DNA from: Patiria pectinifera
Taxonomy: Eukaryota > Echinodermata > Asteroidea > Valvatida > Asterinidae
DNA: 64,000 bases
Assembly: GCA_029964075.1 (NCBI GenBank)
Contig: CM057140.1
Coordinates: 6,466,643-6,530,642 of the forward strand
Direction of reading: 5' to 3'
Shown here piece after piece: positions 12,406 through 59,015 of this stretch. The position numbers and the translations under genes were made by a program. Within the stretch, counting starts at the first letter, position 1, and every line of letters starts with the position of its first letter. A model generated the notes under the pieces. That model saw nothing but the letters and a program-made list of their open reading frames with translations. It was not told the DNA's origin and ran no database searches.

Positions 12406-13241
12406 GCAATAGTTTCGTGTACACAGGCCTACATATACACCCTTTTAAACCTTTGTGACTGAATGATTTGATTGATCCAATAAACTGGGCTTGCCATTTT
12501 AAAATGTTAATAAGCTCCAAGATGCTCCAGTTGAAGCTACTTTGGAATCTTATTCTCAGGCGACAGAAAGTTTTTCAATATCCAGAGAGTGGGCGAAAGT
12601 GCCGTCCTGGGCCCCTGGGTTTTACAAAACAGGTTGGTGATAACTTTGGAAAAATCTTTCAGTTTCATTGGTGGATATCGAGTGGGTGCGGCACAAAGCA
12701 ATCACTTTCACATTTAACATGCACATTTAGATACCAAATCCGTCATATTTTGCATGAGAGGGTTGAAATACAAAGATATACATCTAACTATAATTCCAGG
12801 AATCTCTGTGTGTCTGTGTGGGTGTGTGTTTGTACGATGCCCGTGTCATACGCATGTACACAGTACGCGGGATTCACGAATTTTCCGAATGCATTTTCAA
12901 AGCGGCGGGGCCGGGATATATGCGTAGTGTATGTCTGCCTGCTATTTGGATTTGGGCAGATGGTGCCATTTGTCTACATGCAGTCCATATATTCAATAGC
13001 TATGTACGTGGTTCCATCGTTTTCTTTCTTTTTTTTTCTCGAAAAACTACCACAGTGGTATTCTCTTTTTATTAACCTTTCCAAAGGTACTTCACTTGAT
13101 TCGGAATAAACTGTCCAAGACGATGAAAAGTCCCAAGAACTGTGAACGTTAATTTCTTTGCGATTGAGACACCGATGAACATTACAATCAAAGGTAATGT
13201 TTTGAGAGTATTTTCGCATGAAGTGTCTTGCCGAAAAGCTC

Positions 13242-16085: not shown

Positions 16086-16100
16086 AGCGTGTATACAGGC

Positions 16101-16297
16101 ATGGAGCGGGGTTGGTACATGCGGTTCATTTTAGGTCTGATGATGTTGCACTGTGCGACTGTAACCTTGACGGTTCATGCAAGCAAGGAAGCGTGTGAGG
16201 TGTGTGAGTGTAGCGACCACGGGCCTCGCACAGTTGACTGCAGCGATAGAGGTCTGATGGAGTTTCCGAAGGGGATACCAAACGACACCAAAGTCCT
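16101..16297 (+). CDS. Gene 2 exon 1: signal peptide and LRRNT
   Basis: Encodes a hydrophobic leader ([19 protein letters not shown]) and the N-terminal LRR cap, with cysteines in [20 protein letters not shown] and then [11 protein letters not shown]. The donor is CT|GTAAGT, phase 2. It follows the last unit of the upstream tandem array. Confidence 0.85.
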
Positions 16298-19200
16298 GTA
16301 AGTGAAACAATTATTATTGCTGGCACTACAACGTACTTGTTTTACCTTTCTGACTGACGACCCCCCCCCAAAAAAAATGACTCCCTGTCTCGTTTTTGTC
16401 TACCCCCGTTTTTCCCCAAGAACATCATGGGAAAGAGAAAACCGGAGACAATTTTGGTAAACAAAAACCAAAAGAGAAGAATCGAATCAATCTTGTACTG
16501 AACCTTAAATTGAAATCCTTCACTGTACATAAAATGAAATCTTTTACTGTACAATACAATGACTGGAGAACTACTGAAATGGCCTTAAACTGCAAAATAT
16601 ATTCGTATACGTATGAAATAGATTTGAACAGGGACTTCAGATGATGGTCCCCGTCCCCGTTATTCGATTTTTTCCACGGTCGATATATCTAAGCACACAA
16701 ATTTATGCGACCCTGCGACCCAGCCAATCGGAGTCGACTAAATCGTGACGTCATTAAATTTCGAAATCTGGCCTAAAGTTGTGATTTTTCAATTCAAATG
16801 CAGTGGTTTGTTTTATTTGTAATACAACAATGGCTGGGCATAGATCTATTAGACAAGCTTGGCACTGTGTAAGATAATACACAGCGCATGACCGCAGCCT
16901 GCCTTTGCTCAATTCACAGCACATAATTGTCGTGCTCGGGTTGCGATGTCTATGACGCAACAACGGTTTAATGACCAAATAGCCTATATAGAAAGCGCCC
17001 ATTGATTGGTCAAGATCTAGAGGTCAAGAGGCGGTTGTCTTCCATCATTAATCGTCAAATCTGATCATAGACTACCAAAAACAAACCAATCCCCCCCCCC
17101 CTTCTCCGCGACTGCTGACTGACTGACTGCTCCTGACAAGCTGGGTGGTGGTTTCAGATAGGATGACCCTGCAACAACGAAGCAGCCAAGAGTCTTTTAG
17201 TATCTTTCTGACTGACTGACTGCTCCTTGTGAGCCGGGCAGTGCAATCATGTAACGCCGATGAATGCACTGCAACCCCTAGGTGTAGACCAGATGGATGA
17301 CAACACAGCAGTGAATAGCCATTCACAATCAATTGAATAGTATGTTGTGATCTTGTACCAGCTTTACTAGGGTTGCTTTGTCTTGTTTATTTTGAGTTGA
17401 TTTCATTGCATAATTGATTACAACAAAGCAAGCATTTCTTGAAATAAAAAGCTCGTATAACTTTTCTTTTTCCAAATTCAACTTCGACACTGCAGGCTTA
17501 TGTCAAGTTGTGCTTAAAATATTTTTCTTGAACTTTCATCCCGAAAATGATTCAGTTGAGGAAGGAATTTCGCATTAATATACAATATATGCTAATAGCG
17601 GCCTATAATAAAGCCTTGAATGCACAATGTTCATTTTCAGAAACCTTGCCGAGAATGTCTTGAAGAAGATACCTAAGAATGGTTTCTTGGACCTTCCGCA
17701 CCTTATTTTGCTGTAAGTACATTGCTTATTGTTCTAATGGGTGGCATGCCACAAAGCAAACAACGCCCTTGGCCTTCTGTATAAAATAATATTTTTAATT
17801 AGCACTTCAATTGCCTTGTAGAAACATGTTATCAACACCGTTTCGTTTGTTTTGAATTGACCTGTTCTCAGATTAGTTTTACACAGCAGTAAGTACATAC
17901 GCTTACTGACATGGAAAGAATCATTACAGCTTGCAAGCCACATGAGAATGGATCCAGATATATTGGATATTTTACATCATTTGTTTTTACTGAGTTACAC
18001 ATGTATACCCGATCTCTTTAAAATATAATTAGTCCTGATTGCAAAGTTCCAATTTGTACGTATTTCTTTTACGAAACAAATTCCACTATATTCCAACCTC
18101 GTCTAGAAGAGTAACTTTATTTTCAACCTTGTTTCCCGGAAAAAAAATATTTTCGGAATTTGTTTTCCCTGTATATTGATTGCACACAGCAACAGCAAGT
18201 AATGTTTGTTGTGAATTATCACGTTCACGCCACCTCATCAAGAGCCCCCATATCCATTTTGCTTATTTTTATGTTGTGCTGCCGTTTTTACTGCAGGCAC
18301 GACCCTAAAAAGGTAAATTTGGGATGGCGCCATTTTCCGGCATGAATATGAACATCTCTGCCAAGTTTCACGTTTTTATGCAAAGGTGCACAATTCATCG
18401 ATATTTTGTCACATATCCGCTGGACTAATAATGGTTTGATAAGATTGCTACTTTTCAATTTAAAAGGCACTGTAAGCGCAAGAAGGCACCAGATTATTAC
18501 TTATTTGCATATGTGTGCATAGCCTTGGTCAAGGCGCTTGTCCCTAGGGTATTCGGCGGCATATCTTTGCCGCACACTTCAAACAGAACAACGAAGACTA
18601 AAATATTCTCCAGAAACCATGAGAAAACGTCGCGCGACACTATTATACCGACTGCCGTTGACCAAAAAAATTGGCCAACAAATATATCAAATTTACCTCA
18701 AAACGACCTCCTGAAATACAAGGAGAGATCGATGATTAAAATCGAGGAACTACAGATTGCTTACGTGTTGGATGAAAAGTGAAATTTCCCGTTCCGAGAG
18801 CGCCCCTCGCGATCAATCGTGAACACGCTAAATTTCCGACTCGTGTTTGAACAACACGGTGTGGACGTACGTGCCCAGCGTTAATTCGATGGTCCTAGCG
18901 CGATTCCGTTACCGAGTGCGATTCATCGATTATGATAATGAGTAGACTGGATCTCGCTTGCACACACAAGTGCATTTCGAACTATGATACGGAGTCGGGA
19001 ACTAGGGCAGCTATCAGCGGAAACCAGTTAAAGCTAGTTCCCGACCCCATATCATCGTTCGAAAGCACTTAGTGTACAAACGAGATCCAGTCTGCTCATT
19101 ATCATAATCAATGCATCGCCCTCGGTAACGGAATCGCGCTGGGACCATCAGATGAACGCTGGACACGCACGTCCACATCGCATTGTTCAAACACGAGTTG

Positions 19201-22200
19201 GAAATTTATCGTGTTGACGATCGCGATGGAAGTTCTCGGAATTGAACGGGAAATTTCATTTTCATCCGACTCGTAAGCAAACTTTACTACCTCAATTTTA
19301 ATCATCGATCTCTCCTTGTACCTCAGGAGGCGTATCTAGTAATTTGGAGGCCGTTTTTAGGTAAATCTGGTGTTTTTGTTGGCCAATGTTGGTTTTCTTG
19401 GGGTCAACGGCAGTCGGCAGAATAGTGTCGCACGACGTTTTCTCATGGTTTCTGGAAAATCGCCACCAAAATCATCGAAAAATTTCCTATTTTTGTCTTC
19501 GTTGGTTTTTTTTTTAAGTCGAGTACATGTACTAGCTTCATGAACGTCTGCTGCATCGTATGAGGTATGAATTATGGAATCTGGGTCGGAATAATATAGG
19601 GAAAATAACCGTTTTTGTAATGCACTGGGGATGTACAGTCCGAGATTTTGGGATTCTTACGACCCGGTGATTGTAACGTAGTTTTGACTCGAGCTCTAAT
19701 GCCATAGGCATTAGAGCTGGAGTTACTCAAGCTAAGTAACTATAGGCAATATTGAGTGAAAATGTACATTTTTCTAAGAATCCCTTTTTTTCTACCAGTT
19801 TTTGCTCGTAGAAGGTACAATTTTGAATATTTGTCAAGTGCCCAACACCACACACACCTACATCACACATCATTTGAGAGCCTAACATGTCTACTTTTAG
19901 ATTAGGCATAATGTGGAACTGTCAAACGAGGGAAAATTTGTCTTTTGGCTCATTTTGGTCTAAAAGTCACAATTTTGGGTCAAAAATATGATTTTACAAA
20001 TGTTATATTCTATATACCTGTGGGACCAGCCTGAACCATCGAGGAAAGTTTTACACCAAATTGACGTTCCATAAATTCACAAATACCATATTAAGATTAT
20101 AAAATGTAAAGTAACTAAAGGCAATATTGAGTAAAAATGTGATTTTTTTTCTCAAAATCGTGTTTGTTTTTAAGGGGGACATTAAGGTAGCATTTTGTTA
20201 TTTGTCCGTTGCCAAACATTACACACCTACATCATGTAAGGAACACAATTGGTTAAATTTGGTATTTCAGCAAATTATGCCTTTTTATCAGCAAGCAAAT
20301 AAAAAAATCGATCATAGATCATTTTCACAATAACTTGACTACGACTTAGTGTATTTCTCGCCAATTTTATTTAATAATTGTAGACATCTATGGAGCAAGT
20401 CCCATCCATGGAAGCAAGTTGTACAGCTAAATGTATATAATCTCCCATAAATTCACTACAGAAATCTTAGTATTACAAAATGTACAGTAACTATAGACAC
20501 TATTGAGTCAAAATGGTTTTCTCAGAATCGTATTTCTAAAAAGCAAAATAAAATGCTGAACTGCACAAATTTATATTTAGGCATAAGATGGAACTGATGA
20601 GTGACATTTTTTTTTTATAAGAATATGACTTGTTGCTACAATCCTGGCCAAATCTTGCTGGGCCCCCGTTCAATGTTGTCTCTCATTGCGCGATGTGTGC
20701 TCCATCAGCTGGAAACACAACATTGACCGGGGGAGTGGGTGACCGTGGCAGGCTCAGGAAGTGTCCCAACCATTTTGGCCGGGATTGTAGCATGAACTCT
20801 TGTCAGTGCTGGAGGTGTTTCTCTTATATACATCTGAAAAATGTCCCTAATTTGTAGCAATGTTAAAGATGTAGCAGGTCTGTTTAGTTCACAAGACAGT
20901 AGAGTAGATACCTGAATGTGTCTGCATGTTTCATCCTTGAATGCAGCTTGGTACTGCGGCGCTGCGAGCGTGGCTGCCCTTAATTCAGGTCGCCCTGGCC
21001 TCTTGACTTAAACCTTTGGTGAGCGAAGACGAGCAGTGATCTCAGTGACCTAGGGAATGTGTCCGTTGGGAAGGCCGTATGCCGCCATCACGTACAAAGT
21101 GGTCTCCTTAAGGATGTACAATTAAGGGAAGGTCACGAACTGACCGACTGAACAAACGATGAATGCACAAACACTGACCCATTTATTTATCAGACAACAT
21201 GATACTTTGTGGTTCAAAAGTGCAGTTGGCTAAAATAGATATCCCATCTGTTAACATAGATAATTCCATCATTTACATTTCGGATTCTTGTAGAAATTTA
21301 GGCGTTATGTTTGATTCATATATGTCCATGTCTGTTCAAGTATCTGCTATTTGTAAATATGTTCGGTATCATTCGCGTAACCTTGGTACAATCAGAAAAT
21401 ACTTAACTCGTTCAGCCACTGAAAAAATTGTTCCTGCCCTGATATCATCCCGTTTAGACTTCTGCAACTCACTTCTTTATGATTTACCCAAAACACAGCT
21501 TGCCCGATTACAGAAACTCCAGAACACAGCTGCTCGCATAGTTACTCTAACTAGTTGTAAAACTCACATAACGCCAGTTCTGCGTTCCCTCCATTGGCTG
21601 CCAGTACAGTTTCGAATAGTTTTCAAATTACTTTTGCTTGTTTTTCATTGCTTACAAGGTTCTGCCCCTGGATATAATTCTGATTTGCTCATTTCTTACA
21701 ACCCTGCTAGGTACCTCAGGTCTTCAAATTCGTCCCTGCTTGTTGTGCCTAAAACTATTAAATCTTGGGGGGACCGTTCATTTTCTCATGCTGGACCTAT
21801 GTTATGGAACAAACTTCCTCAAAATATTCGTGATAGTGCTACTTCCCATGAGTTTAAATGTGCTCTGAAGACCCACCTATTCCAAACAGCATTTCATTAA
21901 TCATCCAGTTTGATTTCACTCTCATATGTACTGTTTCATATTCATGTATTTTCATTTGTGCGTAGTTTTCTTCCCTGCTGTTTTTGATGTTCATGTTTAT
22001 TTGTTTGTTTCTCTGCGCCTTGAGCATCTAATCAAGATGGATTTGGCGCATTATAAATGCTCTTTATTATTAACATGTAGCCCACGAGGTAGCAAGACGT
22101 ACACCGACCAAGCTTCAGATCCCCGGTGTGTCTCCGGCTTGCCCAGTCGTTAGCACGTCGGTGCAGCAACACGACAACGCACACTGTTCTGTTCTCCACG

Positions 22201-25200
22201 AGACGCCGCAATCCACGTCCGTTCTCAACGATGCGCTGTGATCAACTCCTACTTTGGAACACGCGCACGGTTCTAACCACAGAGGGCGCTGCGCAAGCTT
22301 GCTGCTTCGTGCCCTATAAAGTACTCGCTGCAAGCACACCACTGCGCTACAGTACCAAGGAGTGAAAGGATATGTGTCATCATTTCCCTGGACACACGGT
22401 TTTCGCAGTCAACTACTTTTCCAGATATGATGCTAGGTTTGGCAGGAAGGTTTTTTTTATATTCTGAAGGCCAGAAGAGCAACAATAAAAGCGCTTTGCA
22501 AATCTCTCCAAACCGTCAGAAAACGAGGAAATAGTGCTAATAAATGCAGTAATACAGTAGCTAGTGGTAAAGTCGTATGAACAGAGCGTGGAGGGTATTG
22601 AAGATAATATGGAATATATCTAAGGTCAAAGGTCATAGATCAATGGTCAAATCAAGTCATTTATGATACAATTCGTAAAAGTTTTGATTCAGTTGTTATC
22701 TCTGAGGGTGGCATGGAACGGGGTTTGGCGAGTACCAAATCGTTCATTGGTGACATGGGGATGGTAACCCCCAAGACGGTAAAGAGCGAATTGTTAAGTT
22801 TTGCGACTCGACCTGTCGAGGCGAAGAACAACAGTTCAGCTCGAGTTGACATCTCATCAGTGGGTCCGTCGCCACTGAAAAGAGAGGCACGGGTCCATGG
22901 TGATGTGGGTCAGATGGGTAGTTTGGAGCGACCAAATCGCAGGCCAAACATAACCCCTGTTCGGTACATCGGAAAGGTGCTCTGTTGGGTGACTCTGGCC
23001 ACAAGTACACGTAGAGTGCGCTTGTAAAATTGTTTGAGCGGAGGTTTGGGTCAGCTCGATAGAGTGAAAATTATCTCGTCGAACTGAGACATCGGCGCCA
23101 AAAGCCTTGAATTAGGGTAAGCGATTCACGAATTGACAGCGAGAGCATACCCTAAGTTGCAGGAAGATGCTCATGAGAGGTTGGCTAAGAACCACTTCAT
23201 AGATGCTGTTGACAGTCATTCAGTTAGGGAGGGCATCAACAGGGCTCGTCCAAAAACTTAGGATGAAGCAGTCCAGGCTGCCCTGGAGACTGAGAATTTC
23301 GAGAAGGTGGAACAATTGCTGGACCGGAAGCCCGCTAAATTGGCGAGAGCTTTGGGCTCAGAAACTGAACAGAGGCTGGACACTCTCGAGGAATGTCTCA
23401 ATAAGCAGGCTAAAACTTTGGACTCTGTGGCTGAATTGGCGAAGTCTTTGTCGTGTCAGATTAAAGGTCAAGGTCAGGGTAAGGGCGTGTTGTCTCCCCA
23501 GAATCACAAGCCCGGGAAGCCTGAACCTGGGGCATAGCGGTGTTTCAGATGTGGTGACTCAGATGTGGTGACAAAGGACACTTCGCCCGGGAGTGCAAGA
23601 AAACTCCAAAGCAGGGAAACGTCAATCAGCCCCCTGTCGAACCCGCGGGAGGGCTGGGCGGTCAAAGGGTTCAAAAGACAACATAGTGACAGCGAGGGTG
23701 GTGGAGCTCGGTAAGGTTTGTTTGTTGATGGGATGGTAAGGACGACAAGTGTCGATTTTTGATCGACACGGGGGTCCACCAGTACTTTAATAAATAGTAC
23801 GGTGTACTACCAAATTCCGAAAGAAAAGAGGCCCGTCCTACAGACGGATGATGTTCAGGTGAAACAAGTTGACGATAGTCAGCTCGCCCTGTTGGGTATA
23901 GCTTGGGTAGAGGTACAAGTGGGTCAAACCACGCACCAATTCAGGGCAGTGTTTGTCGACATGAAATACTGTGGTATCCTGGGCATGGATTTCCTGGTAC
24001 CCTCAGGTAGAAATCTAAATTTCCAGTCGAAAGAGGGGAGGCTCAGTGGTGAGTGAATCAAATGCACCAATGGTGCTGGCGAGCCTTTTGTTGGTCGTGT
24101 TGTAGTTTCTCAAACAACGGTGATTCCGTCAGGTCATGAGGCCGTGGTCCCGGGTATAAATGCTCGGAAGGGTGCTGACTTGGTCGGGCCTGTCATGGTA
24201 GAACCGATGGAAGGTGGCGGTGACCTAGCCAAGAAGGGCTTGGTGTTGGCCAGATCTCTGGTTTGGACTGAAGCCGATGTTGTTGCGTTGCGGGTCTTTA
24301 ATCCCGGAAGAGAGAAAAGAGTTGCACGTGAGGGTACAACAGCGGGACTGGTCTCCCAGGTGGAAGTTGATTCAATTCATGGTGAGTTGGATAAGGTGAC
24401 AAATGCTGGTGAAGAGTTACCCCAGCACTTGCAAGATTTGTTTGCGAGGGGTACAGCCAATGTGGAGGCTATGTACCATGAGGACGTCCGGAAATGTCTT
24501 GTAGACTTTCAGGATGTGTTGTCCAAGGGTGACCATGACACTGGTCGCACGGACGTGGTGCGGCATCACGTAAATACTGTTGATGCTAAGCCGGTGAAAG
24601 AACGGATGAGGCGTCATTCGTATTGTTAGGAGGAAATCCACAGGCAAGTCAGTGATTTGGGAAAGAGGGGGGGGGGGTGATTGAACCTTCCGACAGTCCA
24701 CGGGGGCAAATGTTGTTTTGGTTGACAAAAAGGATGGTACGAAACGCTTCTGTATTGATTACAGAAAGTTGAATTCGGTGATCATCAAGGATGCCTATCC
24801 TGTGCCGCGCATTGATGAATCATTTGATGCATCGGGTGGGGCGAAGTGGTTTCTTACACTTGATTTAGCGTCGGGGTGCTGGAAAGTCGCTCTGGATGAG
24901 GACGCCAGCCAAAAGTCATCATTTGTGGTGAGAAGCGGGCTGTACCGGTGAAAATGCATGCCTTTTTGAGCGGCTTATGGAAAAATGGTCATGACTGGCT
25001 TGCAGTGGGAAATCCTACTGATTTATTTGGATGACATCATCGTGTTTGGCCAGTCCATGAGGAAGACCCTAGAGCGTCTCCGAGTTGTGTTTGACAGGCA
25101 AAGAAACGCTGGGCTTAAACTCAAGCCCAATAGGTGTCATTTGTTTCATATGTCAGTGGCTTACCAAGGGCACATTGTGTCCTCAGAGGGGGTAGCCACG

Positions 25201-52200: not shown

Positions 52201-55200
52201 CTGCCCACGTTTTTTCGACGACGTATTTTATGAATCAGTGCATCCTGAAAAGTAAATGATTACTGCTAAATAAAGGTATCGGCGATTTTGAATCCCACTC
52301 TCGCAGCACGTTCGTTAGTCCACTTACCGCCTTGTTGAATGTTACTGTCGATATCGAGAACGTTCTTTAGGCAACACTTGGGCAGTTTTTACTCATTATG
52401 GGGTAATATTTACCCATATGAGAGCACATATGCCTGTGTTGTTGTACGTTGCAAGGTCAAATGATGTCACTTAACCCATAATTGGGTAAAAAAAAAAGTA
52501 CTCAACGTTGGTACGCGACACATTTACTCAGCAAGCTTTGACACTTCTTTTGTAGAGTGTATGTAGTCTGCTGGAACAAGGGTACGGCTGATCAGCCGTA
52601 CCCCTATTCCAGCAGACTACGTCATGATCATGAATCGCCTTGAATGTCCAGCAGTGGCACTGTCATTCAAGTGACCTGGTTTGCAGAGCAAGTGAAAGTC
52701 ATAAGCTGCGATTGTAAGGGCCCAACGTCGAATTCTGGACGACGCAATAGGGGATACTTACCCGCTACCTCGCATCGAGGAACTGTCTGCAGACATATCA
52801 TGCGGGAAGACCTTCAGCAAGCTGGATCTTAGTCATGCCTTTCTCCAGCTTGAACGATTGAGGAGGAGTCACGTGAACTCCTTACTATCAACACCCACAA
52901 GGGTTTTTTTAAGTACACGCGTATGCCCTTTGGTGTATCTGCTGCACCTGCAATCTTCCAGAGGACTATTGAAAGATTTTTGGCAGACATCCGCCAGGCA
53001 GTCGCATTTCTTGATGATGTGCCAGTCACTGGAAAGACTGAAGCAGAACATTTCGCAAATCTCAACAAGGTCCTGAGTCGACTTCAGAGTGCAGGACTCC
53101 GTCTAAAGTGCGAGAAATGCGTCTTCTTCGCCCCTGATGTATTTGGGGCACCGTATCAAAGCAGCAGGCTTGCATCCTTCATCAGAGAAGGTTCAAGCAG
53201 TCAGGGATGCACCAGTACCACGTTAAGAGACAGAGCTGAAGTCCTACCTGGGACTCCTGAACTATTATGGCCGATTCATGCCGAATCTATCATTGGTTCT
53301 GGGGCGACCACACTCGCTGCTCAAGAAAAACATCGGCTGGTCATGGAGGCCAGTACACGGTGAATGCTTCCAAGCTTCAAAGGATTTGCTGTAGTCAGCC
53401 AGAGTGCTCATGCACTATGACCCAGGTAAACAGTTTTATCCAGTGATGCCAGCCCGTATGGTGTGGGCGCCGTGCTAGCCCACCGCATGCCCGATGGTTC
53501 TGAGCACCCAGTCGCTTACGCTTCGCGTTCGCTATCGTCAGCAGAACGAAACTACTCACAGCTAGATAAGGAGGGACTAGCAGTGATCGTCGGGTTGAAA
53601 AAGTTTCACCAGTAGGCCTACGTGTACGGTCGCCACTTCGAGATAGCTACGGATCACAAATCGCGGCTAGGACTGTTCAGTAAGAAGCGACCAGTATCAG
53701 TGTTAGCTGACTGGTTTACTGTGGCCTTGAAGTCACCACAGATTCGCAGTTTACCCGACTCTTTCATCACGGGTACAATGGGGGATGCCCAACGAAAGAA
53801 TGCTACAGGTTCGATGACTCCATCTCTTTGGAGTCGACCGAGTTCATCCTCCACTGGCTGTTTCATGGCGAAGGGTACTGGTCTGGCTTCAGAATTTGGT
53901 TTTGCGTCAGCTTTTACGCTGATGAGCTCCTGTTGTCCTTTGAATTTTGTCTTTTGAGTTTGTTCAATTCATCGCGAAACAACTCACTGTACTGTACTGT
54001 CCTGTGATGTCGATAGGAACAGGTGTGTGGTTCACTTGACGGATTGTGTGTCATGCTAATCGAAGATGGCGTAGCCAGTTACGGCCAAGAAGATTGGGTC
54101 CCTTGCCTGACACGACGAGAAGAAGCAATTGAGCGGTTTGGTTGTTGTGCTCAACTGCAACGGTGCAACTTGCAATGACTGGTATTTTCTGACCTGTGTA
54201 TGCACGCAGTTCAATGTCCGTGTCCTTGCATAGTGTCAGTTTGTTGTCAACAAATACGACTCGATGGTGTTGTCAGTGAGGATGGAAACCGAGGCACCAG
54301 TTTCGATTTTCATGGTCACCGGTTTGCAGTTGATGGACACAGTTACTAAAAACGGAGGCTCTTTCGTCTGTGAAGTTGTCTTGTACATGGTGTAGGTTTT
54401 TGTAGGGGGCGCACTCTCTTCCACATCAACATTTCCATCAATGTTGTATGTGTTGTGCTTTGACTGTGTCGATGATGACGTCTATAGGGTTTACTGGTCC
54501 TTCACACCTTGGCCACGTGACCTTGCTTTCCACAGTTATTACAGTTATATGAGCGAGCTCGGCAGTTCTGTGATGTGTGTTCTGTTTGTCCACAGCGATA
54601 GCACTTGCGAGGCCCATGGGACTTGCCGTGTGCTTGACTGTGAGTTTGTGGCCTCCCTCTACCCTTACCCTGGGGCTTTACACTGCCGACTTTGTGCGTT
54701 TGTTTGTTTGGGTGGATGGTGGGGGGCTCCCGTCGCTTGTATGTTGCTGGATATCCTTCGCATTCTTCGCTGCCAGCTCCATGGCTCGAGCCATTTCCCA
54801 ACCCTTATCAAACTTGAGAGTAGATTCAGACAACAATCTACATTGAATCCGATCATCCTTGATACCGCACACCAAGCAATCACGTGGCATGTCATTGAGA
54901 GTCTCCCCAAAACCATAGTGTTGTGCGAGGTGACGTAGTTCCGCAATAAACTGAGAAACTGACTGGCCTGCTTGCCTAACTTTGGAGTTAAACTTGTATC
55001 TCTCCTCTATGACAGATGATTTTGTGCTGAATTGATTCTTGGTGATTGAAAGTAGTTCATCAAATGTCTTTTCACCAGCTTTGTCTGGCGCAACTAGCTG
55101 GAAATCAACTTGAATGTATCCGCCCCATAGCCAGTCAACAGTATGGCTCTTTTCTTACCCAGTGCTCTCACATCATTCGCCTTAAAAGACTGTCTCCAAG

Positions 55201-58200
55201 GGTGCACATACGCCATGTCTCCTTCTTAACATGAAACTCACCTACGTTACCGAAGGTATTCACGTTACCTCGTCGCCAATTGTTATAACCAGGTAAACAC
55301 ACTAATTTGGGAGCTGCAAACACGTATTGTTTATTTCTACATGACTACACGACTCGTGCATCTACATGACGCACACTTGCAATGCACACTCATCGATAGT
55401 ATTTCGCACATCTTAGCGAATATAAATAAGACCTAAGTCATCAAATATGATGACTTAAGTCGTTGCTTGCAAACTGAATGAGGAAAACAACAACTTTATG
55501 TATTTTCAATTTTGTGTTAGATCCATGTTCCAAAACAATCTTTCATCGATTGGAGAGAGGCCATTTGCCACCGTCAATAAAACAATCCAACAGGTGTAAG
55601 TAAATTCATCATCCAATTTTTTTGTTTTGTGCTTCCCTGAACGGAATCAAGTACAAGTCCATGTATAGAACTATGTTTGTCAAAGCATGCAACCAATATT
55701 TTGTATAACTTATCCCTTAATGAACAAGACTCCGACATCAATTTGACGTCCTGGGTTGCACATGTATATAAGCATTTGCCTGTTCAAATCACGTAATGAG
55801 TGTACCAGGTTAAATATTAGATTCAATAACTCAAGACAGAAAAATGTGGTTTTCGCCAATATCGCAGGTCTGATAAAGTACTTAAGTGCATGTAATGATA
55901 GATTCGCGAATTTCCATCATTGTGTCATATAGTATGAAATTAGATTCTAACTTTTTCCGACTTTCCAGATCGTTGTATAACAGTCATTTGACAACTATTT
56001 CCGATGTCGTATGGCAAGATTTGGGAATCAACGCCTATGTGTAAGTTACAGTTTGTGTGACAAAGTTTTCGCTTTCAAGTTTACATTTTGCTGCCAAGAT
56101 TGTTACTGTTGTAAATTTTCCTTTCTGAATATTTTTTAAGTTATAGTTGTAACGTATCGCAGCATTAACGATGTACCTCATTGACAACTTTTTTGGGAGA
56201 TTATTGGGGTTGAACATAATACCTTTTCATTTTGTTCCTTTGTTCTCAGGGCTGTTGATAACACCCTCCAGTTTGCGCCTGCAACAAACCGGACTGATCT
56301 GAAAATGTAAGGATCTTTCACGACTCTCATATAAATTATTACTTGATGGTTACTAAAGATATTGGTTTTGCTCTACATGTTATAAATGGCCCATATGCTC
56401 TCTATTTTATAAAAATGCAATCCTTGAAAATGCACCTTTGAGTCGAATTCAACCTTATTTTAAATTGCATATGTTTGTCATTTGCAAGGGTTCTTTTGGT
56501 GCCTTTCGGTTTTATACTGAAGCAAACGTCCATATATAATTTTGAGTATACGTGTGATGTCATTCAAGGCAGAATCCTGGGTGTCAATTCCAAATATATC
56601 ACATCAACAGGTACCTGGATTTTGGATGTATTGCTATCATAAATGTTCCGTTACGATAACAGTAAGCCAAAGAGCATCTTTTCTCACAAATGTTTTCATT
56701 AAGCAAACGGTCTGGTTTACAACTTAAACAGAAAACCCCTGAAATGGACAGTGACTTCCAAAAATGACATAACAACAACAGCGCCCTCAGTTGTTAGGAA
56801 AACATGGAAAATTTGAAATGTTCAGAGAGGTTTTTATACATTAATTTTTTTAATGTTCCTAAGGAAGTTCATGTCATGGAACTTATAGACTTGACCTGTA
56901 TTGCATTGGTACAATACACCGTAAAAAAAAAAAAAAAACATAGGCATAGAGTTATTTTTTTGTACCTTCAAATTTCAGTGAACAGGTTGGTGACGGGTTT
57001 GCCCTACCGATAATTGTAACGACGGAAATGGCAGATATCTTCACAAAATCTGGATTCTCCTGTTCAAGAACTGTTCATTGGTGGCGATGCGTGCCATGTG
57101 CCCAAGGATATTATGGAGATCTGAGGGAGAGTGGGTGTAAAGCGTGCCCAGCTGGTACTACGAAGTTCAGTTTTTTTTTTGATAAGATATTTTTGGAAGG
57201 AAATTGGAAGCAATGTTCATGTCATTGCACACGTTATCTGCTTGAAGGTTATTTATGCGCAATAGCATGAACTAATGATCTACAAAGTTTTCTGATTTCA
57301 AGGATGCACTGATTTAATTTTGAATGGGTGTCCTAATACTAGGAGGATTTCTCCCTACATTATTTAGTCGGCTAATGGAAGTACCACTGCTCGGATTATG
57401 AGAAAAGAAAAGGTTTGCATGACATTTTGCAAGTACTATGTTGAAAGTCGAAGAAAAGTGTCGAATGGCAGTGAGGGGTTTTGGACAGTTTTAATGAAAT
57501 TACATGTATTATCTTTGAATCGCAGGAGGCTTTTACCAAACCAAGACTGGACAGGCAGCAGACACATCACAGCCCATCAAGTGTCAAAAGTGCAACAATG
57601 GAACCTACGTCACCCCAGCTGCTCACCCTGGTATCAGCCCTGCAGATTGCACCGTGTGTCCTACAGGTACCAATAAAAGTCTCCATGCAGGGTTCCGCGC
57701 ATGCTTTTGTCTCGATAAGTACTACCGGAAAGATCGGTTTGATGAGTGTTATCCTTGCCCAGACGAAAGTCTCAACTGTTCAGAGGAGTATCAACACCTC
57801 TTACCTGGATTTTGGTGGACTTGGGACTGGGGTTCAAACGACAACTGCGAAGCTTATCAACATTTCGTTGTCAACATCAGAAACAGAAGTGATTCTTACA
57901 ATAGCAACACTCAGCAGTTTAGGGGAGTGTTGCCTAAGGTACATCCGTGTCCACGTAAGGAGTCTTGTTTGAATGAAGGTGATGGTATCAATGTCACTTG
58001 TGAGGTTGGTTATGAAGGTTGGCTTTGCTCTGAATGCAGTGTGGGGTACTATGCGTGGTTTGATCGTTGTAATGTGTGCCCAAAGTGGTGGTGGTTCTTA
58101 CTTGAAGTCGTTCTTCTGTTGGTTGTGTTGGCAGTGGTAATACTGGTCATCGCTTGGGATGTGCGGAGAAACCGGAGAAAAGGACGGTCGGCCGTTGATG

Positions 58201-59015
58201 TGATCTTTGCTCGAGGGAAAATCTTGCTTGGTTTCTATCAGGTGATGGGCGAGATTTTCTCTGCCCTTGATGAGATTCCCTGGCCGAATATTCTGACTAA
58301 GTTTGGGTCATTTTTCAAACTGCTGGAGATGAATATTGTCCAATTGGTCATCAGTCCCCGCTGCTACTTTCCAGACTTCACCTACCGCAATGTGTACATT
58401 GAGTATTTGTTTGGAATGAGCTTAGTTTCGTTTGTTGTGCTGGCAGCATTGTGTGTCTATTGGGTTTCAAAGTGCTACTTGGCGATCAAGAAATACACTG
58501 TTGAAGAGCGTGTCAAGACTTTGTCAACCACAAGACAGAAATGTTACCTGTTTGTTGTTATGCTTCTCTTTGTGTCTTATCCCGGCTTGTCCAGTGTTAT
58601 ATTCACCCTCTTGCCTTCTGGTTGCGACCTGTTCTATCTAGATGAGAACGAGACCTACAGTGCTACGAGACTTCGATCCGATTACTCTATCGACTGTCAA
58701 AACGAGCAGCATGTTCATTTCAACCATGCTGCCGAAGCTTCTCTCTGTTACGTTGTTGGCTTCCCGTCCTTGCTGTTCGTACTTCTGTGGAGAAGCAACG
58801 GACAAGACAAGAGAAAGAAATCGCATGAGCACCTTTTGCCTGAATCGTCAGTAGATGATCCGAGTTACTGCAGCATCAATGATCCAACTATGCCACACAG
58901 AAATGAAAATGATTCCACATTTAATCAACCAGGCATCAACCAGGCATCACTTATAATTACATGTATTTGCAGTGGAATTGGGCCCGGGAAGGGGAGTGCC
59001 AGAGAAGATGTTTAA
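16101..59015 (+). CDS. Gene 2: LRR / cysteine-rich / multispanning receptor, 27 exons, 1207 aa
   Basis: This is a predicted cell-surface receptor. The order is signal peptide (1-27), LRRNT cap with [14 protein letters not shown] repeats (about 66-655), ephrin-receptor/GCC2-GCC3-like Cys-rich region (about 680-895), then four hydrophobic segments near 899-922, 1002-1028, 1052-1073 and 1115-1133, and a short polar tail. Exon lengths sum to 3624 nt and keep one frame. All introns are GT-AG; all are phase 2 except the last, which is phase 1. I start at ATG 16101 because it gives a clean signal peptide; the frame has only GTG upstream. Exons 10-16 are a duplicate of exons 2-9. Relative to gene 1 the C-terminal membrane segments are missing. 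The ligand is unknown. Innate-immune or sensory recognition is inference from the LRR ectodomain. Confidence 0.85.
16298..17640 (+). other. Gene 2 intron 1
   Basis: No gene seen. From about 17090 it shares TGACTGACTGACTG stretches and the block GAGCC.GGCAGTGCAAT with 39840-40040, the upstream edge of the internal duplication. Confidence 0.6.
17641..17712 (+). CDS. Gene 2 exon 2: LRR (72 nt)
   Basis: One repeat, [20 protein letters not shown] then LILL, flanked by TTTTCAG and GTAAGT. Partner of exon 10 (40382-40453). Intron sequence on both sides is also homologous (about 17090-18250 versus 39800-40890). Confidence 0.88.
18587..19505. repeat. Foldback: about 920-bp imperfect palindrome
   Basis: The left arm (about 18587-19006) and right arm (about 19033-19505) are reverse complements over most of their length, separated by about 26 bases. 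Matching landmarks are GAGATCCAGTCTGCTCATTA (right, about 19081) with its complement at about 18942, ATCGATCTCTCCTTGTA with TACAAGGAGAGATCGAT, and TTCTCATGGTTTCTGG with CCAGAAACCATGAGAA. The right arm carries about 50 bases more. No transposase is visible. Confidence 0.9.
19734..20600. repeat. Three tandem copies of a ~370-bp repeat (inverted fourth copy at 28560-28760)
   Basis: The marker GTAACTA.AG.CA.TATTGAGT recurs at about 19736, 20112 and 20483. A reverse-complement copy with the same internal order (CATTTTGTAATCTGAATATGG, CGGCAATTTGGT, CCTCGATGG) lies at about 28560-28760, upstream of exon 3. The repeats bracket the LINE and gypsy insertions of intron 2. Confidence 0.75.
20658..20740. 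repeat. Hairpin-forming inverted repeat
   Basis: CCCCCGTTCAATGTTGT at about 20660 pairs with ACAACATTGACCGGGGG at about 20718 with one or two mismatches and a loop of about 40 bases. Confidence 0.7.
21199..22075 (+). mobile_element. CR1/L2-like LINE, 3' end with RT C-terminus
   Basis: A 233-codon frame (21199-21900) carries the C-terminal region of a non-LTR retrotransposon polyprotein: [55 protein letters not shown] and [20 protein letters not shown]. The 3' UTR ends in a GGCGCATTATAAATGCT-type hairpin followed by TTATTATTAA, the short repeat tail usual for CR1/L2-clade elements. The 5' RT catalytic part is absent, so this is a 5'-truncated copy. The frame is intact, suggesting relatively recent insertion. 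Confidence 0.88.
22700..25990 (+). mobile_element. Ty3/gypsy LTR retroelement relic lacking integrase
   Basis: Recognisable parts in order: a gag-like frame with a CCHC knuckle remnant ([10 protein letters not shown] at about 23540), a protease active site LIDTGVHQ at about 23760 with ILGMDFL at about 23975, and RT from about 24718 ([39 protein letters not shown] at about 25025, [15 protein letters not shown]). RNase H follows ([20 protein letters not shown] at about 25452, [10 protein letters not shown] at about 25767). Stops and frameshifts break the frame many times. No integrase follows and no 3' LTR was recognised, so the right part was lost. Sequence at 22080-22600 may include the 5' LTR, but this is unproven. 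Confidence 0.88.
25991..28555. other. Gene 2 intron 2, unassigned segment
   Basis: No protein-coding signal or recognised element. A G run lies near 28420. Some of this may be gypsy LTR or flank, but I could not define ends. Confidence 0.35.
28560..28760 (-). repeat. Inverted copy of the 370-bp intron 2 repeat
   Basis: Read on the minus strand it matches the 19920-20110 segment (CCATCGAGG, CAAATTG.CGTT, CCATATT). It is a single copy, partial. Confidence 0.7.
28931..28990 (+). CDS. Gene 2 exon 3: short LRR (60 nt)
   Basis: [20 protein letters not shown] between TTTTACAAAG and GTAAGT. 18 of 20 residues are identical to exon 11 (42141-42200), and most base differences are silent. An 11.2-kb transposon-filled intron precedes it. 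Confidence 0.88.
29173..29241 (+). CDS. Gene 2 exon 4: LRR (69 nt)
   Basis: [20 protein letters not shown] then KTV, flanked by CTCGTAG and GTGAGT. Partner of exon 12, with 15 of 23 residues identical. The changes are mostly replacements. Confidence 0.88.
29705..29776 (+). CDS. Gene 2 exon 5: LRR (72 nt)
   Basis: [20 protein letters not shown] then LTHV, flanked by TGTTCCAG and GTAAGT. Partner of exon 13, with 14 of 24 residues identical. About ten codons differ by replacement and two or three silently. Confidence 0.88.
30190..32720 (-). mobile_element. Antisense LINE relic, split by a DNA transposon
   Basis: Read on the minus strand, 32720-31430 encodes RT pieces: [27 protein letters not shown], then [20 protein letters not shown] and VDTTIFT. 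It ends [19 protein letters not shown] just before 31430. The peptide resumes at 30300-30190 as [20 protein letters not shown] then [12 protein letters not shown], the usual C-terminus of jockey/I-like LINEs. The 1.13-kb element at 30301-31428 is inserted at that point. Several stops and frameshifts make it inactive. Confidence 0.85.
30301..31428. mobile_element. TA-flanked non-autonomous DNA transposon inserted in the LINE
   Basis: Ends are inverted: CACTGTAAAAAATTG on the left and TTTTTTTAACAGTG on the right. TA dinucleotides lie at 30299-30300 and 31429-31430, and removing the insert plus one TA restores the LINE reading. A TA target duplication suggests a Tc1/mariner-like mechanism, or another TA-targeting superfamily. 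Short degenerate repeats (ACAGTAGAATC.CTGT) fill the interior near the right end. No transposase is seen. Confidence 0.8.
33190..34975 (+). mobile_element. Jockey-like LINE relic (sense)
   Basis: A basic linker frame (33228-33521, with [20 protein letters not shown]) is followed by RT fragments: [20 protein letters not shown] at about 33683, the hallmark [14 protein letters not shown] at about 34190, [11 protein letters not shown] at about 34465 and [16 protein letters not shown] at about 34826. Multiple stops and frameshifts break it. Its orientation is opposite to the neighbouring LINE. Confidence 0.85.
35085..35210. repeat. Diverged GAGTAC-rich stretch (block 3)
   Basis: Contains ACGGGTAC, ATGAGTACA, ATGAGTACAAG and ACGAGTAC at irregular spacing, resembling the arrays at 8925-9392 but weaker. 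Confidence 0.6.
35739..36099 (-). CDS. Harbinger transposase exon 2 (truncated)
   Basis: Begins after a CAATAG acceptor and encodes the helix-turn-helix-like and start of the DDE region ([47 protein letters not shown]). An in-frame TAA follows GKHI, although GATG|GTAAAC just before could serve as a donor to a further exon. I found no convincing continuation. Confidence 0.72.
36734..36906 (-). CDS. Harbinger transposase exon 1
   Basis: ATG at 36906-36904, open to the donor. It encodes the basic, Trp-containing N-terminal segment typical of HARBI1-type transposases ([15 protein letters not shown]). It ends in AG of an Arg codon completed by the next exon. Confidence 0.75.
37143..37214 (+). CDS. 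Gene 2 exon 6: LRR (72 nt)
   Basis: [20 protein letters not shown] then LRYL, flanked by CCTTGCAG and GTGAGT. Partner of exon 14. A Harbinger-type element ends about 20 bases upstream of its acceptor. Confidence 0.88.
37417..37528 (+). pseudogene. 18S rRNA fragment inserted in intron 6
   Basis: The segment AAGAGGGACTGACGGGGGCA, TTCGTATTGCGGTGTGAGAG, GTGAAATTCTTGGATCG, AAGCATTTGCCAAGAA and GTTTTCATCAATCAAG is the conserved central region of eukaryotic small-subunit rRNA. It is about 112 bp with several mismatches, in sense orientation. Nothing of the rest of the rRNA is present. The homologous intron of the duplicated block (44700-44900) lacks it. Confidence 0.88.
37822..37893 (+). CDS. Gene 2 exon 7: LRR (72 nt), no partner in copy 2
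   Basis: [20 protein letters not shown] then MREL, flanked by TTTAATCAG and GTAAGT. The phase fits its neighbours. The corresponding interval of the second block (about 44825-44995) keeps the upstream intron sequence but not this exon. Confidence 0.8.
38106..38174 (+). CDS. Gene 2 exon 8: LRR (69 nt)
   Basis: [20 protein letters not shown] then REV, flanked by CTACAAG and GTAAGA. Partner of exon 15, with the core LKELGPDTF identical. Confidence 0.87.
38690..38890. repeat. Local direct duplication, about 80-bp unit
   Basis: TGTTGTGGACTTTTGAAGCA with GTCCTTATTCGTTGCATTAC at about 38708-38757 is echoed at about 38819-38877 (TATTGTGGACGTTTGAAGCA, then GTCCTTATTCGTTACTTTAC), spaced about 112 bp. 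Confidence 0.7.
39220..39285 (+). CDS. Gene 2 exon 9: short LRR (66 nt)
   Basis: [20 protein letters not shown] then SM, flanked by GGCATTACAG and GTGAGT. Partner of exon 16, which is 6 nt longer. The 5' flank GGCATTACAG is shared. Confidence 0.85.
39286..40381 (+). other. Gene 2 intron 9, junction of the internal duplication
   Basis: No gene. Position 39800 onward is homologous to 17090 onward, so the duplication junction should lie in this intron, probably near the T-rich stretch at 39760-39810. Confidence 0.6.
40382..40453 (+). CDS. Gene 2 exon 10: LRR (72 nt), start of duplicated block
   Basis: [20 protein letters not shown] then LISL, flanked by ATTTTCAG and GTAAGT. Duplicate of exon 2. 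Confidence 0.88.
41555..41636. repeat. Hairpin-forming inverted repeat in intron 10
   Basis: GTAGTCTGGTTCCCTGAC at about 41555 pairs with GTCAGGGAACCAGTCTA at about 41620, a stem of about 17 bp around a 47-base loop. A smaller stem, CCAACGCTGATC with GATCAGCGTTGG, lies at 41730-41757. Confidence 0.8.
42141..42200 (+). CDS. Gene 2 exon 11: short LRR (60 nt)
   Basis: [20 protein letters not shown], flanked by TTTTACATAG and GTAAGT. Duplicate of exon 3, including the upstream intron end CCTAACTGTAT.TTCTCTG. Confidence 0.88.
42383..42451 (+). CDS. Gene 2 exon 12: LRR (69 nt)
   Basis: [20 protein letters not shown] then QIV, flanked by GCTCTTAG and GTGAGT. Duplicate of exon 4. Confidence 0.88.
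42863..42934 (+). CDS. Gene 2 exon 13: LRR (72 nt)
   Basis: [20 protein letters not shown] then LINV, flanked by TGTTCTAG and GTAAGT. Duplicate of exon 5. Confidence 0.88.
42935..44417 (+). other. Gene 2 intron 13, no element identified
   Basis: Contains a GAGTCGAGT-rich patch (43135-43230) and a C-rich patch near 44055. I found no coding or mobile-element signature I could support. Confidence 0.4.
44418..44489 (+). CDS. Gene 2 exon 14: LRR (72 nt)
   Basis: [20 protein letters not shown] then LQHL, flanked by TTTCACAG and GTGAGT. Duplicate of exon 6, without the adjacent Harbinger insertion. Confidence 0.87.
44996..45064 (+). CDS. Gene 2 exon 15: LRR (69 nt)
   Basis: [20 protein letters not shown] then QQV, flanked by CCCCGAAG and GTAAGA. 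Duplicate of exon 8. The following intron bases (AAACACT..CAGCACGGTGGA) also match copy 1. Confidence 0.86.
45113..46339. mobile_element. TIR transposon (about 1.2 kb) in intron 15, carrying a SINE
   Basis: The left arm begins TATCCGGTTCGTTAG and the right arm ends CTAATGAACCGGATA. Inner parts also pair: GGTTCAGATTCTTCCAAAA, ACCAAATTCGGCACAGAT and ATACCATTCTATT on the left (45207-45270) with their complements on the right (46145-46205). Arms are therefore about 165 to 195 bp. TA at the outer edges is compatible with a TA target duplication. No transposase frame. It is absent from the corresponding intron 8. Confidence 0.82.
45285..45600 (+). mobile_element. tRNA-derived SINE
   Basis: The RNA polymerase III A-box-like TGGTCCAATGGTTA (about 45294) and B-box-like GGTTCAAACCC (about 45336) are spaced as in tRNA genes. 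They are followed by a body with GGCAAGACACTTTACTACAA and AAATGGGTACC. The tail AAAGCGCTATATAACCT ends in TTATTATTA repeats, the L2/CR1-type end that would let a LINE partner copy it. It sits inside the TIR transposon's left arm. Confidence 0.85.
46865..46936 (+). CDS. Gene 2 exon 16: LRR (72 nt), end of duplicated block
   Basis: [20 protein letters not shown] then LNLM, flanked by GGCATTACAG and GTGAGT. Duplicate of exon 9. Confidence 0.87.
47323..47412 (+). CDS. Gene 2 exon 17: long LRR (90 nt)
   Basis: [20 protein letters not shown] then [10 protein letters not shown], flanked by GTCTTACAG and GTGAGT. It is 18 nt longer than the standard unit, which puts extra residues on the variable side of the repeat. 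Confidence 0.84.
47610..47681 (+). CDS. Gene 2 exon 18: LRR (72 nt)
   Basis: [20 protein letters not shown] then FQKL, flanked by CTCTTTAG and GTGAGT. Confidence 0.86.
47843..47914 (+). CDS. Gene 2 exon 19: LRR (72 nt)
   Basis: [20 protein letters not shown] then ISQV, a textbook LRR (LTTLPEGLF), flanked by GTATTAG and GTGAGT. Confidence 0.88.
48218..48289 (+). CDS. Gene 2 exon 20: LRR (72 nt)
   Basis: [20 protein letters not shown] then TEMM, flanked by CCCTACAG and GTAAGA. Confidence 0.85.
48820..48963 (+). CDS. Gene 2 exon 21: two fused LRRs (144 nt)
   Basis: Two repeats, [20 protein letters not shown].. and [20 protein letters not shown].., in one exon of exactly twice the standard 72 nt, flanked by TTTCGAAG and GTGAGT. 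This suggests intron loss between two ancestral single-repeat exons. Confidence 0.87.
48990..49160. mobile_element. Possible end of a CACTGTAAAA-type transposon
   Basis: TACACTGTAAAAAAAAATGC at about 49003 resembles the left end of the element at 30301. It is followed by repeated CCGTAA/ACGGT motifs. I could not locate a matching right end. Confidence 0.35.
49380..49692 (-). mobile_element. Antisense tRNA-derived SINE-like element
   Basis: On the minus strand from about 49692 it reads GTAGCCTAGTGGATAGCGAG (A-box-like) and TTGTTCGAATGATCC (B-box-like) at tRNA spacing, followed by a non-tRNA body. The 3' end is not clearly defined. Confidence 0.6.
49983..50051 (+). CDS. Gene 2 exon 22: LRR (69 nt)
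   Basis: [20 protein letters not shown] then TNV, flanked by CTTTGACAG and GTAAGT. The following intron contains the rearranged minus-strand gypsy element. Confidence 0.85.
51722..52559. mobile_element. TIR element inserted in the gypsy copy
   Basis: The ends CACTCTTAGAAAAAAGT and ACTTCTTTTGTAGAGTG are near-perfect inverted repeats. The 838-bp interior has repeated TTGCGTAAAA/TTACCC motifs and no transposase. It separates the RNase H end from integrase in the retroelement. Confidence 0.7.
52563..52620. repeat. 58-bp near-perfect palindrome with no spacer
   Basis: GTAGTCTGCTGGAACAAGGG then TACGGCTGA pairs with the following 29 bases with two mismatches. It abuts the right end of the TIR element. 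A further inverted pair of about 22 bp (ATTCAAGGCGATACATGATC at 51699 and its complement at about 52625) flanks the whole insert. Confidence 0.9.
55521..55595 (+). CDS. Gene 2 exon 23: LRR (75 nt)
   Basis: [20 protein letters not shown] then TIQQV, flanked by TGTGTTAG and GTAAGT. Confidence 0.85.
55969..56040 (+). CDS. Gene 2 exon 24: LRR (72 nt)
   Basis: [20 protein letters not shown] then NAYV, flanked by CTTTCCAG and GTAAGT. Confidence 0.85.
56250..56306 (+). CDS. Gene 2 exon 25: degenerate terminal LRR (57 nt)
   Basis: [19 protein letters not shown], flanked by GTTCTCAG and GTAAGG. The LRR consensus is weak, as is common for the last repeat before a cap. Confidence 0.8.
56979..57154 (+). 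CDS. Gene 2 exon 26: LRR-to-Cys-rich transition (176 nt)
   Basis: Starts [20 protein letters not shown] and moves into [20 protein letters not shown] then [11 protein letters not shown]. The CxxCAxGYYGD..GCKACPAG pattern is that of ephrin-receptor-like/GCC2-GCC3 cysteine repeats. It ends GCT G|GTACTA, switching the intron phase from 2 to 1, consistent with a module boundary. Confidence 0.84.
57526..59015 (+). CDS. Gene 2 exon 27: Cys-rich region, four membrane segments, tail
   Basis: The 1490-nt last exon after ATCGCAG. It continues the Cys-rich region ([58 protein letters not shown]). Hydrophobic segments follow: [60 protein letters not shown] and [17 protein letters not shown]. The reading then enters a polar tail ([15 protein letters not shown]) and stops at TAA 59013-59015. 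Family members known to me continue after the 'VGFP..LFVLLW' helix into further helices ending in a 'HAYLRP..D.DNRLQ' motif. That motif is present in gene 1 at about 50-120 but absent here, so this protein looks C-terminally shortened. Confidence 0.85.

Follow-up and report, generated by a model that had tools for sequence, protein, structure and literature searches.

A putative hybrid, 3′-truncated member of a clustered LRR receptor family in Patiria pectinifera

A 64,000-nucleotide stretch of the 613.5 Mb Patiria pectinifera genome (C12:6466643-6530642, hereafter the window) carries a 27-exon gene that we consider probably to be a member of a clustered, expanded family of LRR receptors, a hybrid of two paralogue types that has undergone a 3′ deletion of about 900 bp and is now either non-signalling or dying. 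The most likely overall interpretation is that the family consists of cell-surface recognition receptors and that the window gene is a hybrid copy unable to signal, or one that is being lost. An immune or sensory role is possible.

An independent rebuild of the exon chain reproduced the original prediction of 27 exons joined in a single frame of 3624 nt with no internal stop. The frame opens with an ATG at 16101, closes with its one terminal stop at 59013-59015 and encodes 1207 aa, and all 26 introns begin with GT and end with AG; the gene and its exons lie on the + strand. Exon 1 (16101-16297) encodes a predicted signal peptide and an LRRNT cap, ends in a phase 2 donor and is identical at 189 of 197 nt to the paralogue copy58, and likewise to copy60. 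A degenerate second copy of it, with 80% amino acid identity over 56 residues and without a donor, lies at 15556-15723 (+), in a 5′ flank (13237-16268) made up of diverged copies repeated in tandem. About six such copies can be counted by eye, and two of these contain exon 1, in one case in degenerate form. Exon 1 is followed by block A (17641-39285), eight single-LRR exons with phase 2 at both ends that were recovered by an exon scan and by comparison with paralogues (17641-17712, 28931-28990, 29173-29241, 29705-29776, 37143-37214, 37822-37893, 38106-38174, and 39220-39285). Block B (40382-46936), recognized by self-comparison of the window and by paralogues, contains seven single-LRR exons paralogous to those of block A (40382-40453, 42141-42200, 42383-42451, 42863-42934, 44418-44489, 44996-45064, and 46865-46936), with no counterpart detected there for the sixth block A exon. 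Nine further LRR exons, U1 to U9 (47323-56306), came from the same two sources as block A: 47323-47412, 47610-47681, 47843-47914, 48218-48289, 48820-48963 (two LRRs), 49983-50051, 55521-55595, 55969-56040, and 56250-56306 (a partial repeat). The chain ends with a first Cys-rich exon (56979-57154; phase 2 in, phase 1 out, with a weak donor, GTACTA), similar stretches of which occur in the left neighbour, copy58, copy60 and a gene fragment to the right of the window, and a last exon (57526-59015) encoding a further Cys-rich part, DUF7630 and four clear hydrophobic helices before a truncated 3′ end.

As originally proposed, most LRRs occupy an exon of their own of 60-75 nt. This length holds for 21 of the 24 LRR-type exons (72 nt in 12 of them), the other three being 57, 90, and 144 nt long, and phase 2 boundaries on both sides hold for all 24. 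The total is 24 repeats plus one partial repeat, and a conserved Asn stands at a constant position in 22 of the 24 exons. The accompanying argument that such a chain is very unlikely by chance carries less weight than it seems to. Symmetric phase 2 exons, each picked because it is open, stay in frame in nearly any combination, so the absence of stops across 27 joined pieces is weak evidence. Exons of the + strand LRR series were sought as open exons between AG and GT with phase 2 ends; a strict first scan was blind to them, probably because the phase 2 junction divides the LRR motif, and looser scans recovered them. With a filter requiring a pyrimidine tract, a donor, an open frame and half an LRR motif, the region 16-57.5 kb gave 21 candidates in the phase 2 frame on the + strand and none on the - strand, compared with a mean of 1.27 and a maximum of 5 in 100 first-order Markov simulations. 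The other two frames gave 0 and 1 on the + strand and 2 and 3 on the - strand. Twenty of the 21 candidates belong to the gene model, the outlier being 22707-22763. Furthermore, exons of the same length, flanked by AG and GT and at least 0.70 identical, were found for 17 of 17 slots in the left neighbour, 16 of 17 in copy58, and 14 of 17 in copy60. The exon chain is real and beyond chance, and the comparison with paralogues is better proof of this than the joint open frame. Together these data establish an open, spliceable chain as the predicted gene structure.

The introns also hold elements of other kinds. An 18S rRNA fragment of eukaryotic type is present at 37417-37522 (78.5 bits, model positions 869-974), and reverse transcriptase and RNase H fragments are present at 24970-25631 (+) and 52854-53360 (+), with matches to RT_RNaseH_2 (4.7e-15) and RVT_1 (7.7e-7, just below the cut-off, and 1.5e-16). 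A weak match to HTH_Tnp_4 (1.9e-4, below the cut-off) lies at 35739-36191 (-). A long intron contains a long palindrome at 18605-19460, 79% identical to its own reverse complement, whose inner arms are separated by about 106 nt.

The joined protein has the predicted composition of an LRR, Cys-rich, multi-pass protein, with Pfam matches to LRR_8 (1.5e-60), LRRNT (28.3 bits, 1.3e-6, above the cut-off of 25.8) and DUF7630 (PF24633; E = 5.2e-8), the last scoring 34.9, 33.3, and 38.2 bits across separate searches against a gathering score of 27 bits. The combination of an LRRNT cap and tandem LRRs is that of extracellular LRR proteins; no LRRCT cap appeared among Pfam hits to E = 1. Two finer labels in the original prediction did not hold. 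The cysteines it called ephrin-receptor-like reach only 15.1 bits (E = 0.02, in two stretches) with Ephrin_rec_like (PF07699), below its cut-off of 23.1 bits and thus short of a formal match; the available text of one report considers this domain to be of ancient eukaryote origin (PMC6993872). The membrane part was called TRP-like, and no TRP or ion-channel family was among Pfam hits requested to E = 10, a range in which HMMER filters discard most matches above about 0.1. Neither a 7tm family nor a TIR domain was among the Pfam hits, the last exon had no sequence match in the PDB to E = 1, and an AlphaFold model of that exon alone reached a pLDDT of 39.6. The ectodomain matches 271 distinct PDB sequences, the best among the 60 listed being the IGF-binding acid labile subunit.

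The window gene has four clear hydrophobic helices in its membrane part and an intact sibling has seven; nine in all would be our guess for the sibling. The segment after the first helix contains 8 K/R and 2 D/E, and that after the helix at 1007-1025 contains 7 K/R and 2 D/E. The segment 1072-1113 has the reverse composition (2 K/R, 7 D/E), and the C-terminal tail is balanced (5 of each) yet rich in K/R beside the last helix. From these compositions the first two segments look cytosolic and 1072-1113 looks extracellular. This charge pattern would fit an additional membrane crossing between helices one and two, and would place the end of the protein in the cytosol.

The original prediction placed the gene in a receptor family, and this family proved to be expanded. 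The last-exon protein matches at least 44 places in the genome with E ≤ 1e-5. At least 35 of these matches, by our own count, span 425 or more of the 498 residues of the query; the match counts are lower bounds. At least 20 of these near-full-length membrane exons lie on C12 at 4.88-6.53 Mb, within 1.65 Mb (13 on the + strand and 7 on the -), and the rest are distributed over C10 (5), C14 (4), C6 (3), C21 (2), and C18 (1). The DUF7630 model scores above its cut-off at 27 places in the genome and at none in 14 control genomes. Pattern searches for relatives gave no match in viral contigs; two such searches of bacterial and archaeal genome contigs gave 15 and 53 matches, none of which was confirmed. 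Among the papers listed by literature searches, none named an LRR and DUF7630 multi-pass family, and a search by the name DUF7630 found no paper. Ordinary members have about 17 LRR-type exons in the fetched paralogue stretches where these exons were sought, which represent a minority of the 35 copies. Incomplete copies also occur. Among the 35, one contains a stop (C12:5773778). The member at C12:5773683-5775112, whose match is split and interrupted by a single internal stop, is perhaps a pseudogene, and C10:8546258-8620488 contains short membrane-exon fragments, several with stops. To the right of the window, positions 726-3629 of the stretch beginning at C12:6530643 hold a family-gene fragment with the last LRR exons and a Cys-rich exon, and no membrane exon was found within 20 kb of it.

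The window gene was described as complete, and comparison with its relatives contradicts this. Relative to the sibling at C12 6.166 Mb it is 99.4% identical over 57417-58941 and the alignment resumes at 58946, with 902 bp absent; relative to the siblings at C12 5.602 and 5.143 Mb the same deletion measures 904 and 903 bp. Beyond the deletion site (58942-58945, +), the final approximately 24 codons, which end with the stop at 59015, correspond to sequence located 3′ of the sibling's stop. In all six paralogues read there (the left neighbour, copy58, copy60, and three siblings) the last exon continues into a WYWE stretch and more helices, which the window gene does not have. Its open frame of 498 residues is the shortest of the 35, the other 34 ranging from 561 to 742, and it lacks the complete membrane module and tail of a full-length family member. 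The missing part can be seen at the other end of the window, where the first 693 bases are the end of the upstream neighbour and encode three helices, the tail, and a stop: the end of its large membrane exon (1-245, +) supplies helices absent from the window gene, and its last exon (455-693, +) supplies the end of the last helix, the tail, and the stop. Parts of this neighbour's 3′ flank (797-2101, +) are similar to parts of 59001-61122, and also to 62479-62511. A position of the missing membrane exons further downstream in the window was considered and rejected, the region 57.5-64 kb giving only weak matches (best E = 0.016). In the assembly, then, the gene has lost about 900 bp, and with them its last membrane helices and its tail, either before or after the hybrid joining.

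Such an end raises the question of whether the gene is simply a pseudogene, a dead hybrid in a birth-and-death cluster, a reading that overlaps with the dying-copy option of our main explanation and to which we give somewhat less than even chances. The loss of the C-terminus, with a tail read from former 3′ flank, would fit it, as would the presence of a partial copy on the right flank and of another copy with a stop. The body of the gene speaks against it, with all 27 exons open, all 26 introns bounded by GT and AG, and no frameshift. The deletion is recent, given the 99.4% identity to the sibling over the last exon, and there has therefore been little time for decay either way.

The second departure from an ordinary member concerns the LRR array. 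Self-comparison of the window showed that parts of 17189-39594 resemble parts of 39888-47192, in exons as well as introns. An internal tandem duplication giving rise to blocks A and B was entertained and then displaced by the genome comparison, which shows a join of two paralogue types. Over 15762-39730, matched stretches are 89.8-99.5% identical to copy58, reaching 99.5% in 37120-39730, and the window front is 89-95% identical to copy60 up to 39600. Copy58 has nothing matching 16750-17978, which holds the first block A exon; copy60 has this exon, identical at 71 of 72 nt. Beyond 39730, copy58 matches longer than 150 nt and above 84% identity are confined to 49958-50104 (85%) and 57445-58941 (90%). 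From 39819 the sequence is instead sibling-like: 39819-42546 is 97.5% identical to the sibling at C12:6.148 Mb and 95-96% identical, in pieces, to a sibling at about 5.584 Mb (the stretches compared with the 6.1-Mb siblings being 39819-42546 and that from 57417). The hybrid junction is thus placed by alignment at 39730-39819 (+), where a T-rich tract separates the copy58-like end from the sibling-like beginning. Additionally, exon 1 stands directly before an exon of the first block B type in the siblings at C12:6.148 Mb and C12:~5.583 Mb; a third sibling stretch contains exon 1 and only the beginning of an LRR exon and is uninformative on block order. The block order of the siblings and the switch of identity at 39730-39819 indicate that the front of the window gene belongs to one paralogue type and the body behind it to another. 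As the assembly reads, exon 1 and the eight block A exons, all of one type, precede the LRR array of the other, and the gene appears to have arisen recently as a hybrid of two neighbours. A split of the locus into a first gene that stops behind block A and a second that begins with block B was also rejected, as tblastn found no first exon between the last block A exon and the first block B exon, and no membrane exon between the blocks.

A T-rich tract at the junction and near-identical copies in the cluster make misassembly possible. The hybrid, the deletion, or both might be assembly errors among near-identical genes, with a true locus made of ordinary single-block genes. We regard this as unlikely. 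In its favour, in addition to the position of the junction, the last-exon protein is 98-99% identical to those of three cluster members, and the truncated end is unique among 35. However, the block A segment is largely 90-98% identical to copy58 and 89-95% to copy60, and the start of block B is 97.5% identical to the sibling, such that neither half is a plain collapse of any paralogue read. Moreover, the C12 contig spans 15.4 Mb.

Alternatively, blocks A and B could be mutually exclusive splice alternatives that are never joined in one protein. Symmetric phase 2 exons would allow this, and the seven compared pairs of A and B exons retain open frames and splice sites. Against it, the left neighbour, copy58, and copy60 each have a single block, and two siblings go from exon 1 directly to an exon of the first block B type; single blocks in the paralogues make the double block look like a private event of the window copy, and we consider alternative splicing of the two blocks very improbable.

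Substitution patterns differ between the two parts of these genes. For the membrane exon, distant paralogues give a dN/dS of 0.21-0.27, and the two close pairs, with small counts, give 0.34 and 0.43. For the LRR exons of block A, block B, and U1-U9, respectively, the values are 0.68, 0.50, and 0.41 when compared with the left neighbour; with copy58 they are 1.05, 0.48, and 0.50, and with copy60 they are 6.55, 0.62, and 0.44. The ratio of nonsynonymous to synonymous changes relative to the left neighbour is 113:60 in the LRRs and 52:58 in the membrane exon (Fisher P = 0.003). By these sequence measures the membrane exon is conserved and the LRRs are faster-changing. Within the repeats, positions 0, 3, and 21 would face the ligand by LRR geometry. 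These positions were changed in 23 of 36, 23 of 36, and 22 of 31 cases, compared with 0 of 36 for the conserved Asn and 1 of 36 for position 9, in tallies that come from five pairings with shared sequences, and are hence non-independent, and with variable positions chosen after seeing the data. Position 2, which is on the strand too, was changed in only 9 of 36. Between blocks A and B, changes were seen in 14 of 21 cases at positions 0, 2, and 3, compared with 1 of 14 at positions 1 and 4 (Fisher P = 5.6e-4, with positions chosen post hoc). The two blocks differ by a dN of 0.23 and a dS of 0.38 (NG86), or 0.26 and 0.29 (YN00), and when compared with neutrality gave P = 0.087 for amino acid changes and 0.074 for the absence of stops. 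Block A shows 23 nonsynonymous changes and 1 synonymous change relative to copy60 (Fisher P = 0.038), in one of several comparisons and over aligned stretches that differ by 5-11% anyway; relative to copy58 it shows no excess of amino acid change (P = 1.0). Relaxed constraint, rather than selection driven by ligands, could lie behind the LRR changes, because the A versus B comparison is not clearly below neutrality, the pairings have sequences in common, the positions are post hoc, and position 2 is changed in only 9 of 36 cases.

The main explanation, a recombined and truncated member of a receptor family, can be put as follows. An ordinary member would have a signal peptide, an LRRNT cap, about 17 LRR-type exons, a Cys-rich DUF7630 stalk, and a multi-pass domain; its LRR ectodomain would recognize a ligand of protein or microbial nature and pass the signal on through the conserved membrane module. 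Because all introns of the LRR part are in phase 2, repeat exons are recombinable in frame between neighbours, and unequal crossing-over within introns may have joined the two paralogue types in the window gene. Its product, if made, may bind ligand and should not signal. The truncated product could act as a decoy or a dominant-negative form, or the copy could be becoming a pseudogene. A bolder proposal, which we hold as doubtful though worth stating, is that the cluster is an undescribed animal recognition repertoire comprising 20 or more LRR-DUF7630 multi-pass receptors. Their LRR arrays would recombine between neighbours via phase 2 introns and diversify on the binding face, the signalling module would be conserved, and truncated hybrids would be decoys or inhibitors. 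How large germline receptor families are built by recombining repeat exons is a long-standing problem in the study of invertebrate immunity and chemosensing. Provided that the assembly is correct, the process is legible here in the sequence, with the two parents and the two joints still recognizable at high identity in one gene; this gene would be a by-product of repeat-exon recombination, not a complete receptor, and the cluster would offer a testable set of orphan receptors sharing a conserved membrane module.

The idea that the window gene is an LGR-type GPCR is hardly credible: LGR4 and LGR5 are among the listed PDB sequence matches of the ectodomain and LGR genes have one LRR per exon with symmetric introns, but 7tm families are absent from the Pfam hits and the best of the 60 PDB matches listed, out of 271, is the IGF-binding acid labile subunit. 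The architecture has partial parallels elsewhere. With the proteins of PF24633, a curated Pfam family of unknown function, the window gene shares a DUF7630 match above the curated cut-off; in the window gene this match follows Cys-rich sequence and precedes a multi-pass region. An LRR ectodomain on a multi-pass domain is shared with LGR and RXFP receptors, from which the window gene differs in a membrane part without a GPCR match, in the Cys-rich DUF7630 stalk before it, and in its large clustered family; the available text of two reports gives 18 exons and 10 LRRs for RXFP1 (PMC7196478) and describes introns in the membrane part of LGR genes (PMC11863921). Variable lymphocyte receptors and Toll-like receptors likewise use LRR recognition ectodomains, and both are among the PDB sequence matches, whereas the window gene is multi-pass and has no TIR among its Pfam hits. 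In Tetrahymena, LRR genes with 90-bp exons and phase 2 introns have been attributed, in the text available, to exon shuffling and ectopic recombination, and most are described there as having no transmembrane domain (PMC6564038). To the extent covered by that text, the window gene resembles them in its uniform LRR exons and phase 2 introns, and differs in that its commonest exon is 72 nt, it has mostly one LRR per exon, and its product is predicted to be membrane bound.
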